From Bordetella parapertussis (GTDB taxonomy: Bacteria; Pseudomonadota; Gammaproteobacteria; Burkholderiales; SG8-41): a stretch of 38,266 nucleotides of DNA. The number at the start of each line of letters is the position of its first letter. The first letter of the stretch is position 1. The position numbers and the translations under genes are program-made. Where the stretch lies: assembly GCA_945906935.1 (NCBI GenBank), contig CAMDSO010000029.1, forward strand, positions 1-38,266, in the 5' to 3' direction. Shown piece by piece: positions 9,317-19,207 of this stretch. The notes under the pieces were generated by a model that worked only from the letters and a program-made list of their open reading frames with translations, searched no databases and had not been told where the DNA came from.

Positions 9317-10375
9317 TCATGTCACGCGTATATGTGGCTCACCCGCCGACAGACTGCCGATTTCACGGGCACTGGCAAAACCACCGGCGCGGAATATCTC
9401 CATCACCTGCGGCGCCGTGGCGCGGTCGCAGGCGACCAGCAGACCGCCACTGGTTTGCGGATCACACAAGAGCTGGCGCTGCCATTCGGCAAAATCCGCC
9501 GGCAGCTGCGTATGCGGACCGACACTCGTCCAATTACGATCCGAGGCGCCGGTGATGTAACCCGCTTGCGCAAGATGTACTGCGGCCGACAGCACCGGGA
9601 CGTCGGCATAACGAATATCCGCCTGCAGTTTCGAACCGCGGCACATTTCGTGCAGATGCCCGAGCAGGCCGAAGCCGGTGACGTCGGTCATCGCATGCAC
9701 CCCTGGCAGCGCCGACAGCGCAATGCCCGGCGTGTTGAGTTGAGTCGTCACATCGATCATCTGTTGATAGGCTTTTTCGCGTAGCTCGCCCTTTTTCAGC
9801 GCCGCGCTCATGACGCCAACGCCGATCCCCTTGGCCAGAATCAAGACGTCACCGGCCTGCGCCAGGTTATTCCGTTTGATGCGTGCCGGATGCACCACGC
9901 CGATCGCCACCAACCCATATAGTGGTTCGGGGTTATCGATTGAATGACCGCCGGCAATCGGAATGCCCGCCGCTTTGCATACCGCTGCACCACCGGCAAG
10001 AATTTGTTGTGCCGCCTCGACCGGCAGCTTACCCAGCGGTATGCCGAGCAGCGCCAGTGCGAACAGGGGCGTGCCGCCCATTGCGTAGACATCCGAGATC
10101 GCATTGGTCGCGGCGATGCGGCCGAAATCAAACGGATCATCCACGATCGGCAGAAAGAAATCCGTCGTCGCCACGATCGCCTGCTCATCGTTCAGACGAT
10201 AAACGGCGGCGTCGTCACTCGACTCGGTGCCAACCAGCAGGTTCGGGTAGACGCCGGCCAGCGGCGAGTGGGAGAGCAAATCCGCCAGCAACGCCGGCGG
10301 TAGTTTGCAGCCTCATCCGCCGCCGTGTGAAAATGTGGTCAGTTTTATTTTTTGCGGGTCGTTTGATGGATTCAT
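9317..10375 (-). CDS. selD: Selenide, water dikinase, selenocysteine-containing (UGA recoded)
   Basis: SelD makes selenophosphate from selenide and ATP, the selenium donor for selenocysteine and 2-selenouridine. From the ATG at 10375 the frame runs 20 codons, meets TGA at 10315-10313, and continues to 9317, giving 352 residues (E. coli SelD has 347). The TGA falls in the motif HGGG-U-GCKLPP, aligned with the catalytic Cys17 region GAGCGCK of E. coli SelD, with Lys24 matching Lys20; Sec at this site is known in other bacteria, for example Haemophilus. A hairpin follows the TGA (separate entry). Further SelD blocks are LLVGTESSDDAAVY, FDFGRIAATNAISD, GGHSIDNPEPLYG, MTDVTGFGLLGHLHEMC and LLCDPQTSGGLL. 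Without recoding, only a TTG at 10291 could start the gene, and the product would lack the active site. It diverges from selU 18 bp away. Confidence 0.93.
10276..10308 (-). promoter_or_regulatory. Bacterial SECIS-like hairpin after the selD UGA
   Basis: Reading the minus-strand mRNA, nucleotides +5 to +37 after the UGA fold into an extended hairpin. The outer stem is GCAAA/UUUGC, an asymmetric internal loop is CUA opposite A, and the inner stem is CCGCCGGC/GCUGGCGG with one G-U pair; the apical loop is GUU, or wider if the top pairs open. Position directly behind the UGA and inside the coding region fits bacterial SECIS elements, which are bound by SelB. The exact apical-loop residues used by this organism's SelB are unknown. 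Confidence 0.72.
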
Positions 10376-10393
10376 AGGGCCTGTCTCTTCGAG

Positions 10394-11449
10394 GTGTCAT
10401 TGCGTAATAACGAGCCGGTTACCGTAGCACAACTCGCCGAGTTTGACGAGGTGATTGACGTGCGTTCCGAGGCGGAATTCGCCGAGGATCACATCCCCGG
10501 CGCCACCAACTGCCCGGTACTTGACAATGAAGAACACAGCCGTGTCGGCATGCTCTACAAACAGATCTCGCCTTTCGATGCGAAGAAAGTCGGTGCTGCG
10601 CTGGTCAGCCGCAACATTGCGCGCCACCTTGAAGAGAACCTCGCGCAGCGTCCGCGTCACTGGAAGCCTCTTATCTATTGCTGGCGTGGCGGCACACGCA
10701 GCGGCGCGCTAACCTCGGTATTGCAACAAATCGGCTGGCGCGCCAACCGCCTCGAGGGCGGCTACAAAACCTATCGTCGCGCGGTGATCGACGAACTTGC
10801 CGTGGCGCCCGCACGTTTTAACTGGCGCGTCATCTGCGGCCTGACCGGTTCGGGCAAGAGCCGGCTGCTGCGTGAACTGGTGCGCGCCGGCGCCCAGGTA
10901 CTTGATCTCGAAGCCCTGGCCATGCACCGCGGCTCGGTATTGGGCCACCTGCCCGACGCGCCGCAGCCCTCGCAAAAAATGTTCGAGAGCATGGTCTGGC
11001 ACACGCTGCGCGGTTTTGACCCTGCCCGCCCGGTGTTTGTTGAGTCGGAAAGCAAGAAGATCGGTAACCTGCGCACCCCGGAAGCCCTGATCGCTGCGAT
11101 GTGGGCCAGCGACTGCATCCGGCTGGAAGCCCCCCCAACCCTCAGGGTGCCGATGCTGCTCGATGAGTATGCACACTTCGTGCAAGCCCCCGAAGCACTG
11201 GGTGCCAAACTCGACTGCCTGGTGACCTTGCACGGACACGAACGTATCAACGCATGGAAGCAGCTATCGGTGGGAGGCGAGGATGCCCGGCTCGTGCAGG
11301 AGTTGCTCGAACTGCACTACGACCCCGCCTACACCCGCTCAATACTGCATCACTATCCGCGCGTCGATCAGGGTTTGCGCCTGACGGTTGGCGCGGACAG
11401 CGACGCCGAATTCGCGCGGCTTGCGGTGGCCTGCATCGCCGGCACCTGA
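10394..11449 (+). CDS. selU: tRNA 2-selenouridine synthase
   Basis: SelU (MnmH/YbbB) replaces sulfur by selenium at the wobble 2-thiouridine of certain tRNAs, using selenophosphate and passing through a geranylated intermediate. The 351-residue product has an N-terminal rhodanese domain (about 8-135) with the catalytic Cys96 in IYCWRGG, then a P-loop domain with GLTGSGKS (about 148-155), followed by DLEALAMHRGSVLG and VFVESESKKIGN, all typical of SelU. The start is either GTG 10394 or TTG 10400; the purine run GAGGTG just before the TTG could be a ribosome binding site, though its spacing is short. The gene diverges from selD, whose product supplies its selenophosphate. Confidence 0.93.
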   Translation: MSLRNNEPVTVAQLAEFDEVIDVRSEAEFAEDHIPGATNCPVLDNEEHSRVGMLYKQISPFDAKKVGAALVSRNIARHLEENLAQRPRHWKPLIYCWRGGTRSGALTSVLQQIGWRANRLEGGYKTYRRAVIDELAVAPARFNWRVICGLTGSGKSRLLRELVRAGAQVLDLEALAMHRGSVLGHLPDAPQPSQKMFESMVWHTLRGFDPARPVFVESESKKIGNLRTPEALIAAMWASDCIRLEAPPTLRVPMLLDEYAHFVQAPEALGAKLDCLVTLHGHERINAWKQLSVGGEDARLVQELLELHYDPAYTRSILHHYPRVDQGLRLTVGADSDAEFARLAVACIAGT

Positions 11450-12400: not shown

Positions 12401-12447
12401 GCGCCGCCCGAGTAGGCTCTCCACCGCGTGGTCGCGCTGACAGCGGC

Positions 12448-12456
12448 TGCTATAAT
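12448..12456 (+). promoter_or_regulatory. Extended -10 promoter for the arn operon
   Basis: TGCTATAAT at 12448-12456 is a perfect extended -10 element (TGnTATAAT). There is no good -35 hexamer at 16-18 bp upstream, as is usual for extended -10 promoters. Transcription would start near 12463, leaving a leader of about 34 nt before the arnT ATG. No PmrA or PhoP box was recognised by eye. Confidence 0.6.
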
Positions 12457-12496
12457 CGGGGCCCTTTCAAACGACACCCCAATCATCTTGTTTTCA

Positions 12497-14143
12497 ATGT
12501 CGGAACGTCCCCTGCGCGGGGTCTGGATCGTGCTAGCCGCGGCGCTGCTGATCTGGTGCGCCAATCTTGATTACCGCAAGCTCGCCTTGTCGGACGAAGG
12601 CCGCTATTCGGAAATTCCGCGTTATATGGCGCAAAGCGGCGACTGGGTCACACCACGCCTGAACGGCATCAAATATTTCGAAAAGCCGGCGCTTCAATAT
12701 TGGGGCACCGCGGCGGCTTATAAGGTGTTCGGCGAGCACGAGTGGACCGCCCGCTTCTGGCCCGCACTCACCGGCTTTGCCGGCCTGCTGCTGGTCTACT
12801 TTGCGGGCGGCCGCCTCTATGGCAGGCGCGCCGGCTTTTATGCCGCGCTGGTGCTGGGCAGCAGCCTCCTTTACGCGGGCATGGCGCATATCCTGACCCT
12901 CGACATGGGGCTGGCTTTTTTCATGACGCTGGCGATGATCGGTGTCGTGCTCGGCCTCGACCCGCGCGGCAGTCCACAATCGCAAAAACGCTGGATGCTT
13001 GCAGCAGCGGCCGGCTGCGCGCTGGCGGTGTTAAGCAAGGGCCTGGTCGGCATCGTGCTGCCCGGCGCGGTGGTCGTCCTCTATATGCTGATCAGGCGCG
13101 ATTTCAGCATTTTACGGCGCTTGCACCTGTTCAGCGGCGGGCTGCTCTTCCTCGCCATCAGCGCACCGTGGTTTATCGCGGTCTCCATCGCCAACCCGGA
13201 GTTCCCGCACTTTTTCTTCATCCATGAACATTTTCAGCGCTACACCACAACGGTACATCAGCGTTACCAACCCTGGTACTACTTCATTCCGATCCTGCTG
13301 CTGGGCATACTGCCGTGGCTGCTGACGCTGTTCGACGCCCTTGTCACCGCGCTGCGCCGCGAGCGCGACCGCGAGTTCGACGCCACGCTGTTTTTGCTGC
13401 TCTGGTCGGGCTTCATCTTTGCGTTTTTTTCGGTCTCGAATTCCAAGCTGCCCTCGTACATCCTGCCGATCTTTCCGGCATTGGCGCTATTGATCGGCGC
13501 GCGGTTGGCGAAAATACGCGGCCGCACGCTCGCCCTGCAACTACTGCCGATCGCGCTGATGGGTGCGTTTGGCTTGTATGCCACGCAATTCACCGACCGC
13601 CTTGCCTCGGCGGCGATTCCGGCCGAACTCTATCGCGCCCAGATGCCTTGGTTGTATGCGACAGCCGGCGTGTTGCTGGCCGGCATGCTCACCGCCATCA
13701 TACTGGGCTGGCGTGAAAAAACGCATGCGGCCATCATCGTCTGTGCGTTCACCGGCCTCATAACCACACAGCTGGCGGTGACCAGCGAAAGCGCCCTCTC
13801 CCCCGCGCACTCGACCGCTCATCTGGTGAAAAAACTGCCGGCTGATCTGACCCCTGATATGCCCTTTTACAGCATCGGCAGTTATGAACAGACGCTGCCG
13901 TTTTATCTCAAACGCACGCTAACGCTGGTCGAATTCCAGGATGAAATGGCCTTCGGCCTGCAGCAGGAACCGCAGCGCTGGATCCCGACCATCAAGGCCT
14001 TCGAGCCGGTGTGGAACGCGCACCCCTATGCGCTGGCGGTGATGGGGCCGGAAATGTACATCCAGCTACAAAAATCCGGGCTGCCGATGCAACTCATCGC
14101 GCGCGACACCGAACGCGTATTCGTGCGCACGCCACCGCGCTGA
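12497..14143 (+). CDS. arnT: ArnT-like lipid A L-Ara4N (GT83/PMT-type) glycosyltransferase
   Basis: Integral membrane glycosyltransferase of 548 residues (550 in E. coli) that transfers 4-amino-4-deoxy-L-arabinose from undecaprenyl phosphate to lipid A on the periplasmic face, lowering the charge and giving resistance to polymyxin-like peptides. Conserved first-loop residues are present: Asp and Glu in LSDEGRYSEIPR, and Lys in FEKP. About 12 transmembrane helices are followed by a periplasmic C-terminal domain. KLPSYILPIFPALALLIG near the middle is typical of ArnT. The ATG at 12497 is preferred; an upstream in-frame GTG at 12428 would overlap the promoter. It heads the operon arnT-SMR-arnC-arnA(FT)-arnA(DH)-arnD. 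Related GT39 enzymes can use other sugars, but the neighbours fix the role. Confidence 0.9.
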   Translation: MSERPLRGVWIVLAAALLIWCANLDYRKLALSDEGRYSEIPRYMAQSGDWVTPRLNGIKYFEKPALQYWGTAAAYKVFGEHEWTARFWPALTGFAGLLLVYFAGGRLYGRRAGFYAALVLGSSLLYAGMAHILTLDMGLAFFMTLAMIGVVLGLDPRGSPQSQKRWMLAAAAGCALAVLSKGLVGIVLPGAVVVLYMLIRRDFSILRRLHLFSGGLLFLAISAPWFIAVSIANPEFPHFFFIHEHFQRYTTTVHQRYQPWYYFIPILLLGILPWLLTLFDALVTALRRERDREFDATLFLLLWSGFIFAFFSVSNSKLPSYILPIFPALALLIGARLAKIRGRTLALQLLPIALMGAFGLYATQFTDRLASAAIPAELYRAQMPWLYATAGVLLAGMLTAIILGWREKTHAAIIVCAFTGLITTQLAVTSESALSPAHSTAHLVKKLPADLTPDMPFYSIGSYEQTLPFYLKRTLTLVEFQDEMAFGLQQEPQRWIPTIKAFEPVWNAHPYALAVMGPEMYIQLQKSGLPMQLIARDTERVFVRTPPR

Positions 14144-14166: not shown

Positions 14167-14538
14167 ATGAATGCGATCAGCCTTTCCTTACTGATGACCG
14201 GCGTGCTGCTTAATGCTGGCGCCCAATTGCTGCTGAAGGCTGGCACCAACAGCGTCGGCGCCTTCGAATACAGCGCCGCCAACATCGTCCCGATCGGCTG
14301 GAAACTGGCCACCGAACCGCACATCGTCGGCGGGCTTGGTTGTTACGTCATCAGCGTCGTGGTCTGGATCATGGCACTCTCGCGCGTCGAGGTCAGCATC
14401 GCCTATCCGCTGCTCTCGGTCGGCTATGTCGTCAACGCGATTGCCGCCTATTACCTGTTTGGCGAGGCGGTGACACCGATGCGCCTGACCGGCATTGCCA
14501 TCATCATCATCGGCGTGTGGGTGGTCGCACGGTCGTAA
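14167..14538 (+). CDS. arnE: SMR-type L-Ara4N-phosphoundecaprenol flippase subunit (ArnE/ArnF-like)
   Basis: Small four-helix membrane protein of 123 residues of the EmrE/SMR superfamily. Helices lie at about 4-22, 38-58 (weaker), 64-88 and 95-122; the segment SIAYPLLSVGYVVNAIAAYYLFGE is the SMR signature region. In E. coli ArnE and ArnF together flip L-Ara4N-phosphoundecaprenol to the periplasmic side. Only one such gene is present in this operon, so it may act as a homodimer or pair with a distant partner. GAGGAG 7 nt upstream supports the ATG at 14167. It lies between arnT and arnC. ArnE and ArnF cannot be told apart by eye. Confidence 0.85.
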   Translation: MNAISLSLLMTGVLLNAGAQLLLKAGTNSVGAFEYSAANIVPIGWKLATEPHIVGGLGCYVISVVVWIMALSRVEVSIAYPLLSVGYVVNAIAAYYLFGEAVTPMRLTGIAIIIIGVWVVARS

Positions 14539-14541
14539 ACG

Positions 14542-14555
14542 CCCGATGCATCGGG
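14542..14555. repeat. Perfect 14-bp palindrome between arnE and arnC
   Basis: CCCGATGCATCGGG reads the same on both strands. It sits 3 bp after the flippase stop and 14 bp before the arnC ATG. It could be a regulator site or form a small hairpin in the mRNA; no T-run follows, so it is not a standard terminator. Confidence 0.4.
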
Positions 14556-14569
14556 TAAAATCCGGTGCC

Positions 14570-15544
14570 ATGAACACACCCCAGGTCTCGGTCGTCATCC
14601 CGGTCTACAACGAAGAGCAGACGCTGCCGTTGTTGTTTGCGCGCCTTTATCCGGCGCTCGACAAGCTGGGCCTCGCCTACGAAATTATCTTCATCAATGA
14701 CGGCAGCCGCGACCGCTCGGCGGCACTGCTGCGCCGTCAATACGAACAGCGCCCCGATGTTACGCGAGTGGTATTGTTCAACGGCAACTTCGGCCAGCAC
14801 ATGGCGATCATGGCCGGTTTTGAAAATGTGCGTGGCAGCCGTATCGTCACGCTCGACGCCGACCTGCAGAATCCGCCCGAGGAAATCGGCAATCTGCTCG
14901 CCGCCATGGATGCCGGCCACGACTACGTCGGCTCGATCCGCCGCCAGCGCCAGGACTCGGCCTTCCGCCGCTACGCCTCGCGCGCCATGAACTGGATGCG
15001 CGAACGTATCACCAAGATCCACATGACCGACCAGGGCTGCATGCTGCGCGCCTACGACCGCGCCATCGTCGATGCGATCACCAGCAGCCGCGAGATCAAC
15101 ACTTTTATACCCGCGCTGGCCTATAACTACGCAGCGAATCCGACCGAGATCATGGTCGCGCATGAAGAACGTGCCGCCGGCGAATCCAAATATTCGCTCT
15201 ACAGCCTGCTGCGTCTGAACTTTGATCTGGTGACCGGTTTTTCCATCATGCCGCTGCAGGTGTTCTCCCTGATCGGGATGACCGTGGCGGTGCTCTCGGT
15301 GCTCAGTTATATCGTCGTTATCATCGAACGCTGGGTGCACGCTGACAGCCTCAGCGCCGGCCTGCTCGCCCTCTGGGATCGCGACATCCTGCAGTTCTTC
15401 CTCACCGGTCTGGTGTTGTTCGGACTGGGTTTACTCGGCGAATACATCGGGCGCATCTACCAGCAGGTGCGTAGCCGTCCGCGTTTTCTCATCCAGGCAA
15501 TACTCGAAAAACCGGACACTGCAGGTGCGCGCCTTGCTCCATAA
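14570..15544 (+). CDS. arnC: Undecaprenyl-phosphate 4-deoxy-4-formamido-L-arabinose transferase
   Basis: GT2-family, DPM1-like transferase of 324 residues (322 in E. coli) that moves the formylated amino-arabinose from UDP to undecaprenyl phosphate on the cytosolic face. The GT-A domain (about 1-230) has VSVVIPVYNEEQTLP, the DXD motif in TLDADLQNPPEEI, and GCMLRAYDR; two C-terminal transmembrane helices (about 232-262 and 275-305) end in GLGLLGEYIGRIYQQVRSRP, the conserved ArnC tail. The ATG at 14570 places the catalytic domain at the N-terminus as in homologues; a longer frame from 14495 would add 25 unlike residues. Next genes encode the formyltransferase and decarboxylase that make its substrate. 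Confidence 0.93.
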   Translation: MNTPQVSVVIPVYNEEQTLPLLFARLYPALDKLGLAYEIIFINDGSRDRSAALLRRQYEQRPDVTRVVLFNGNFGQHMAIMAGFENVRGSRIVTLDADLQNPPEEIGNLLAAMDAGHDYVGSIRRQRQDSAFRRYASRAMNWMRERITKIHMTDQGCMLRAYDRAIVDAITSSREINTFIPALAYNYAANPTEIMVAHEERAAGESKYSLYSLLRLNFDLVTGFSIMPLQVFSLIGMTVAVLSVLSYIVVIIERWVHADSLSAGLLALWDRDILQFFLTGLVLFGLGLLGEYIGRIYQQVRSRPRFLIQAILEKPDTAGARLAP

Positions 15545-18739: not shown

Positions 18740-19207
18740 ATGCCCAAACAGACCTTTGCCGATTTCGAACTCCCCGCCACCAGCGATACCCTGTTTAAAC
18801 TCTCCGCCGAGCGCGGCCACCCGGTCGTGCTCTACTTCTACCCAAAAGACAACACGCCGGGCTGCACCACCGAGGGCCAAAACTTTCGCGACCTCTATCC
18901 GCAGTTCTGTAAATTGAAATGCGCGATCTTCGGCATTTCGCGCGACAGCCTGAGATCGCATGAAAATTTCAAGGCCAAGATGTCTTTCCCCTTTGAGCTG
19001 CTGTCTGACGCCGAAGAGAGCGCGTGCAAGCTGTTCGAAGTCATCAAAATGAAAAACATGTACGGCAAACAGGTGCGCGGTATCGAGCGCAGCACCTTTG
19101 TCTTCGATGGCGCAGGCGCGCTGGTACGCGAGTGGCGCGGCCTCAAGGTGCCCGGTCACGCGCAGGAAGTACTTGAGTTTGTGAAGACCCTGGATTCCGC
19201 CACTTGA
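18740..19207 (+). CDS. bcp: Bcp-type peroxiredoxin, 1-Cys-like
   Basis: Thioredoxin-fold thiol peroxidase of 155 residues (bacterioferritin comigratory protein, PrxQ family) that reduces hydroperoxides. The active-site block is FYPKDNTPGCTTEGQNF, with the peroxidatic Cys in TPGC. The resolving Cys that many Bcp proteins have five residues later (C-x4-C) is absent (Asn-region GQNF), so it should behave as a 1-Cys form or use another thiol; Cys residues occur later at CKLKCAIF and ESACKLF. The ATG at 18740 gives the usual N-terminus; an upstream ATG at 18701 would add 13 residues. phoH follows after 66 bp on the same strand. Confidence 0.9.
   Translation: MPKQTFADFELPATSDTLFKLSAERGHPVVLYFYPKDNTPGCTTEGQNFRDLYPQFCKLKCAIFGISRDSLRSHENFKAKMSFPFELLSDAEESACKLFEVIKMKNMYGKQVRGIERSTFVFDGAGALVREWRGLKVPGHAQEVLEFVKTLDSAT

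Follow-up and report, generated by a model that had tools for sequence, protein, structure and literature searches.

The selD gene on the minus strand of the analysed stretch, a contig of 38,266 nucleotides (hereafter the window), almost certainly encodes a selenoprotein form of selenophosphate synthetase, in which SelB and a hairpin after the UGA would direct selenocysteine (Sec) into position 21 in place of the catalytic Cys. The sequence-only reading had proposed a Sec-containing SelD here, and this proposal appears well supported by features read from the nucleotides: a single interrupted frame, a UGA conserved across the family, a hairpin under raised constraint and the genes of the Sec machinery elsewhere in the genome.

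The selD frame, its neighbour and the Sec machinery

The features to which the text refers are the following.
9317..10375, minus strand: selD, selenophosphate synthetase, 352 residues with predicted Sec at residue 21 (the TGA stop is counted in the coordinates)
10313..10315, minus strand: UGA codon 21, predicted Sec at the catalytic Cys position
10282..10300, minus strand: apical hairpin of a presumed bacterial SECIS element, with eight pairs (10300-10293 with 10289-10282) and a GUU loop (10292-10290)
10289..10291, minus strand: TTG, the start of the default caller; Leu codon +8 past the UGA, made up of the second and third bases of the loop and the base that opens the 3' strand of the stem
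10394..11449, plus strand: mnmH (selU/ybbB), tRNA 2-selenouridine synthase, divergent from selD and a second user of selenophosphate

The frame opens at an ATG (10375-10373), is interrupted only by the TGA at 10315-10313, in the context SHGGGUGCK, and continues for 331 codons to a TGA stop at 9319-9317. The sequence-only reading was thus accurate in placing the TGA at codon 21 within HGGG-U-GCK and in setting the start ATG 20 codons ahead of it, with the SelD body following in the same frame. The positions of Cys/Sec-21 and Lys-24, the latter three residues past U21, are ones that we take to be essential in SelD. With the TGA translated as Sec, the protein matched both curated SelD models above their cut-offs, NF002098 with 512.6 bits (cut-off 299, residues 8-344) and TIGR00476 with 428 bits (cut-off 125, residues 11-319), and both matches spanned the TGA. 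Residue 21 aligned with Cys17 of Escherichia coli SelD (PDB 3u0o; residues 9-317, 328 bits; the number 17 is taken from this alignment), so that the in-frame UGA occupies the catalytic position held by Cys in the E. coli enzyme.

When no recoding was allowed, selD was listed as 9317..10291, a frame of 324 aa from the TTG, which is the truncation that had been anticipated from a default caller. The TTG start removes 28 codons; the figure of 28 that the earlier reading gave for the upstream part holds for this loss and not for the distance from the ATG to the TGA, which is 20 codons.

MnmH scored 493 bits (cut-off 266), with a GTG as its first listed start. Only 18 bases (10376-10393) separate this GTG from the selD ATG, and the promoter at selD/mnmH therefore probably lies inside the opposite gene. 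The divergent order was found in 30 of 34 Sec-SelD loci, and in the other 4 no mnmH was present within the fetched stretch. The interval between the UGA and the start of the aligned part of mnmH measures 79 bases here and is longer in 20 of the 28 Sec rows listed. Further along the plus strand, the window encodes ArnT-like (12428-14143) and ArnC-like (14495-15544) glycosyltransferases, both below the NCBIfam cut-off, and an AhpC/TSA-family match without a UGA (18749-19123).

As contig C29, the window belongs to a draft assembly of 4.64 Mb (259 contigs, 97.5% complete, 3.28% contamination). The expectation that the organism should possess SelA, SelB and tRNA-Sec was borne out when the rest of the genome was searched: all three were found on contig C149 (9268 bases), with SelA at 604.6 bits (cut-off 267.9), SelB at 427.8 bits (cut-off 242.25) and tRNA-Sec, encoded by selC, at 75.5 bits (cut-off 47) with the anticodon UCA. 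C149 most likely belongs to the same genome as the window, since its SelA, SelB and intervening flavoprotein are 96–97% identical to those of G001 (97% for SelB), a genome of the same genus that carries the nearest SelD, since the gene order is equal and since its G+C content (0.600) is similar to that of the window (0.607). The flavoprotein, located between selB and selC (L128:306-1208, minus strand), is thioredoxin-reductase-like, scoring 232 bits against TIGR01292, below the cut-off; it lies in the same place in 8 of 11 stretches from relatives, while the stretches of G037, G047 and G042 showed none.

Established knowledge of the pathway makes Sec insertion, enzyme activity and feedback the most likely consequences of this gene set. 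SelB, bound to the hairpin, would bring Sec-tRNA(Sec) to UGA codon 21, and Sec-21 would replace the catalytic Cys ahead of Lys-24, placing a selenol in the flexible active loop. SelD would then make selenophosphate, which SelA would use to charge tRNA-Sec. The selenophosphate would thus feed the synthesis of SelD itself and of other selenoproteins, making the enzyme dependent on its own product, while the divergently encoded MnmH would use it for 2-selenouridine in tRNA.

A constrained hairpin after the UGA

Bacterial SECIS elements follow a rule of spacing from the UGA and carry a G in the apical loop. In this gene the first base of the GUU loop lies 21 nt past the UGA, and the hairpin has z-scores of −4.36 (71 nt) and −3.09 (49 nt) against dinucleotide shuffles; over all 34 Sec genes the mean z is −1.39, with negative values in 33. 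Searched against Rfam, the window gave no match at gathering scores. The E. coli selD gene presumably has no SECIS element.

Constraint on the RNA after the UGA is raised in the Sec group only. Over codons +1 to +11, synonymous identity among the 34 Sec genes is 0.78, which no other of the 320 windows from the UGA on attains; the remainder of the gene stands at 0.51 (sd between windows 0.06), whereas the 72 Cys genes show 0.52 there and 0.53 outside codons +1 to +11. Of the 34 Sec-SelDs, 33 retain the four apical pairs, vs 8 of 72 Cys-SelDs, and the loop begins with G in all 33 stem-keeping Sec genes (GTT in 29, GGT in 4). At codon +8, Leu is found in 29 of the 34 Sec genes and is written TTG in every one of them, with GTG in the remaining 5; of the 1141 Leu codons elsewhere in these genes, CTG is the most frequent (557) and TTG accounts for 160.

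Among 1000 synonymous recodings of this gene, 7 fold as well as the native sequence; for six other Sec genes the numbers were 62, 198, 111, 98, 65 and 387 of 1000. The apical pairs are easier to retain: random synonymous recodings kept them in 210–292 of 1000 cases in six of the seven Sec genes tried, and in 19 of 1000 in the seventh (L104). Given that recodings often keep the stem and that Cys genes encode other residues at these positions, the contrast in stem conservation between Sec and Cys genes is weaker than it looks, and part of it stems from the protein sequence.

Covariation was also considered as proof of the hairpin and was dropped, because the hairpin sequence hardly varies across the 34 Sec genes. 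In their alignment (A3), compensatory changes were absent in the first register and limited to three cells at one pair in the second, RNAalifold found covariation in 0 of 4 consensus pairs, and the shuffled controls were not beaten; two other alignments with uneven cuts (A1 and A2) were not used for counts. The lower stem follows two registers in different sub-groups. With compensatory change almost nil, the argument for a SECIS-like hairpin just after the UGA, with G in its loop, rests on synonymous constraint, position and the contrast between Sec and Cys genes.

Conservation and origin of the UGA, and other readings of it

Sixty genomes were sorted by their best SelD match among the matches listed: in 37 (own genome included) a single in-frame TGA interrupts a close SelD, in 13 the close SelD has no stop, 3 have only a distant SelD-like protein, and 7 have no close match. 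The motif could be read in all 37 TGA genomes, in 30 among 106 distinct loci (34 U, 72 C) and in 7 among 13 further loci chosen by position (7 with U and 6 with C, of which the Cys locus L139 is sequence-identical to L061); it was also read in 6 of the 13 genomes without a stop, all of which have Cys. Within the family, the UGA is present in 35 of 36 genomes, that is, in every genome with a close SelD; the 36th (G035, 73% complete) has no close SelD among the matches listed. Of the eight named Sec loci (L048-L052, L057, L096, L104), seven are titled Betaproteobacteria or beta proteobacterium and one 'uncultured bacterium'; L048-L051, judged to be duplicates of G012, G011, G004 and G010, were excluded from all later counts.

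On maximum-likelihood trees, the Sec state requires two changes, one for a large clade and one for L104. The large clade holds 33 rows with support 94/74 in the first tree and 40 rows with support 90/89 in the second, which was built from 75 rows, namely every Sec row (41) and a selection of 34 Cys rows. In both trees L104 is placed among Cys genes, behind starred branches. With the root placed for drawing only, two gains of Sec in SelD appear to be the simplest reading of these sequences. The second Sec-SelD lineage (L104:6049-6102, plus strand) comes from a betaproteobacterial genome titled Baikal-deep and is without the common apical stem. On the first tree, the SelD of a contig titled Lentisphaera araneosa (L105) falls inside the betaproteobacterial Cys group, and this contig is possibly mislabelled or contaminating.

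These data bear on three other readings of the TGA. It could be a nonsense mutation in a Cys-SelD gene, or an artefact of sequencing or assembly, as might be suspected in a single draft assembly with the fragmentation and contamination given above and in a family of proteins where Cys homologues are common (72 of the 106 distinct loci). However, the identical codon stands at the identical site in the 37 genomes and in named public contigs, and synonymous constraint is raised in the TGA genes only, which makes an error extremely improbable. A start at TTG 10291, with the upstream frame untranslated and a protein devoid of the catalytic residue, would agree with the open 324-aa frame from that codon, but the residues ahead of the TGA are conserved as protein (mostly R/K-L-T-x-x-S-HGGG), and the NF002098 match begins at residue 8. 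The TTG itself is explained by the hairpin, given its invariable use for Leu at codon +8 in genes that otherwise prefer CTG. A SelD lacking the loop and its Cys/Sec is expected to be inactive, and we regard this start as highly unlikely.

Readthrough of the UGA with an amino acid other than Sec, whether near-cognate suppression or a reassigned code were responsible, is likewise very improbable: selD itself stops at a TGA, the Sec machinery is complete and six other UGA codons of this genome coincide with active-site Cys motifs, as alignment bore out for four of them (see below). No point in favour of another amino acid was found in this analysis. Insertion of Sec at UGA-21 is the reading retained in what follows.

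Further selenoprotein candidates and the Sec trait in the family

SelB was detected above its cut-off in 33 of the 37 TGA-SelD genomes, 4 of the 13 with a close SelD without a stop, none of the 3 with a distant SelD-like protein and 2 of the 7 without a close SelD. The four TGA-SelD genomes in which SelB was not found above the cut-off are G008, G012, G029 and G034; G029 has a SelB piece at a contig edge, below the cut-off, and no such piece was found in the other three (80–91% complete). Among the matches listed, a formate dehydrogenase with a TGA occurs in 8 of the 37 TGA-SelD genomes and in none of 28 others of the 37, while G032 shows only a C-terminal formate dehydrogenase piece. All four selB-bearing genomes with Cys-SelD have a TGA formate dehydrogenase. 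In the own genome, TIGR01553 gave nothing above the cut-off and no stop, and PF00384 gave four matches without a stop, so that no Sec formate dehydrogenase was found with these models.

According to PMC1794560 (2006), Sec organisms that lack FdhA have Sec-SelD, and the paper puts forward the hypothesis that in such organisms the Sec trait is maintained by SelD as a selenoprotein. The distribution of formate dehydrogenase and SelD described above agrees with this statement in the main. Two genomes depart from it, G035 and G037 (97% complete): both have SelB, and the matches listed include no close SelD and no TGA formate dehydrogenase for either; a G037 locus (L164, G037:C5:67000-75500) contains selA, selB and tRNA-Sec. 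The own genome resembles the hypothesized case of PMC1794560 in having UGA-SelD and MnmH with no Sec FdhA found, and differs from it in that SelD is joined by six more UGA candidates.

Since no Sec formate dehydrogenase was found, SelD was considered as the sole selenoprotein of the genome, an idea rejected on account of these six in-frame UGA codons, which bring the candidates to seven with SelD. They correspond to active-site Cys motifs, three in peroxiredoxin/thioredoxin-fold proteins (FTNAU, WUDIC, FTGGU) and three in AhpD-like proteins (CNYU, CQYU, CKYU). The genes are listed below.
L177:2472-3026, minus strand, own contig C43: peroxiredoxin-/ResA/TlpA-like UGA gene
L177:3072-3620, minus strand, own contig C43: peroxiredoxin-/ResA/TlpA-like UGA gene, adjoining the previous one
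L178:2174-2632, minus strand, own contig C40: peroxiredoxin-/ResA/TlpA-like UGA gene
L192:1212-2588, plus strand, own contig C126: AhpD-like CxxU gene
L193:1690-2325, plus strand, own contig C4: AhpD-like CxxU gene
L194:1940-2572, plus strand, own contig C228: AhpD-like CxxU gene

A TGA was present in 3 of 12 matches in the AhpC/TSA search of the own genome and in 3 of 42 in the AhpD-like search (PF02627). In alignments with PDB entries, four of the six UGA codons, those on C43, C40 and C4, fell on a Cys of the relatives. The best NCBIfam match of the three AhpD-like proteins was NF053654 (YciW-related (seleno)protein), at 72–81 of 310 bits, far below the cut-off. PF02627 (carboxymuconolactone decarboxylase/AhpD) has 42 matches in this one 4.6 Mb genome, some of them two per gene. 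The SelW-like model PF10262 had no match in the own genome, and the five thioredoxin matches (PF00085) were without a stop and yielded no UGA candidate. Within the window, a scan of open frames for other UGA codons near Cys returned 22 contexts by context alone, none of which was taken as a selenoprotein; the scan missed the SelD UGA itself and is too blunt to exclude others.

Sec-SelD as a kind is well known and ordinary, and Haemophilus provides its classic example. What is seen here shares with known Sec-SelD/SPS2 an N-terminal loop with UGA as its catalytic codon, the hairpin downstream and selA, selB and selC elsewhere in the genome, and differs only in the host group, here an uncultured betaproteobacterial family of environmental bacteria that has been little studied. 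Among bacterial selenoproteins, SelD is one of the most widely distributed (PMC5029168, section 14; likewise PMC13188914). What makes the present case interesting is its lineage, together with the candidate selenoproteins around it. PMC1794560 credits Betaproteobacteria with a single selenoprotein family, FdhA being the only selenoprotein named for them, whereas seven candidates are described here; an organism with at least six selenoprotein genes counts as selenoprotein-rich (PMC5029168, section 14). A literature search covering articles without their supplementary tables returned no report of Sec-SelD in Betaproteobacteria, and the groundwater-genome survey of Deng (2026) may cover the group.

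Tentatively, we suggest that a whole betaproteobacterial family could have turned SelD into a selenoprotein (L104 having done so separately), mostly without a Sec formate dehydrogenase, and that in this genome SelD could be part of a larger set of thiol-peroxidase-like selenoproteins, with the thioredoxin-reductase-like gene of the selA-selB-selC operon as a possible reductant. For annotation, a standard ORF call loses the catalytic end of SelD, a truncation to which automatic gene finding is prone in genes of this kind, and the misleading TTG start arises from the hairpin itself, the element most likely to guide Sec insertion. The family allows the 2006 proposal, in which Sec-SelD can sustain the Sec trait, to be tested at the level of a family. 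If the scenario is true, Sec-SelD, not formate dehydrogenase, would anchor the Sec trait in this group, and the Betaproteobacteria would join the groups with several selenoproteins.
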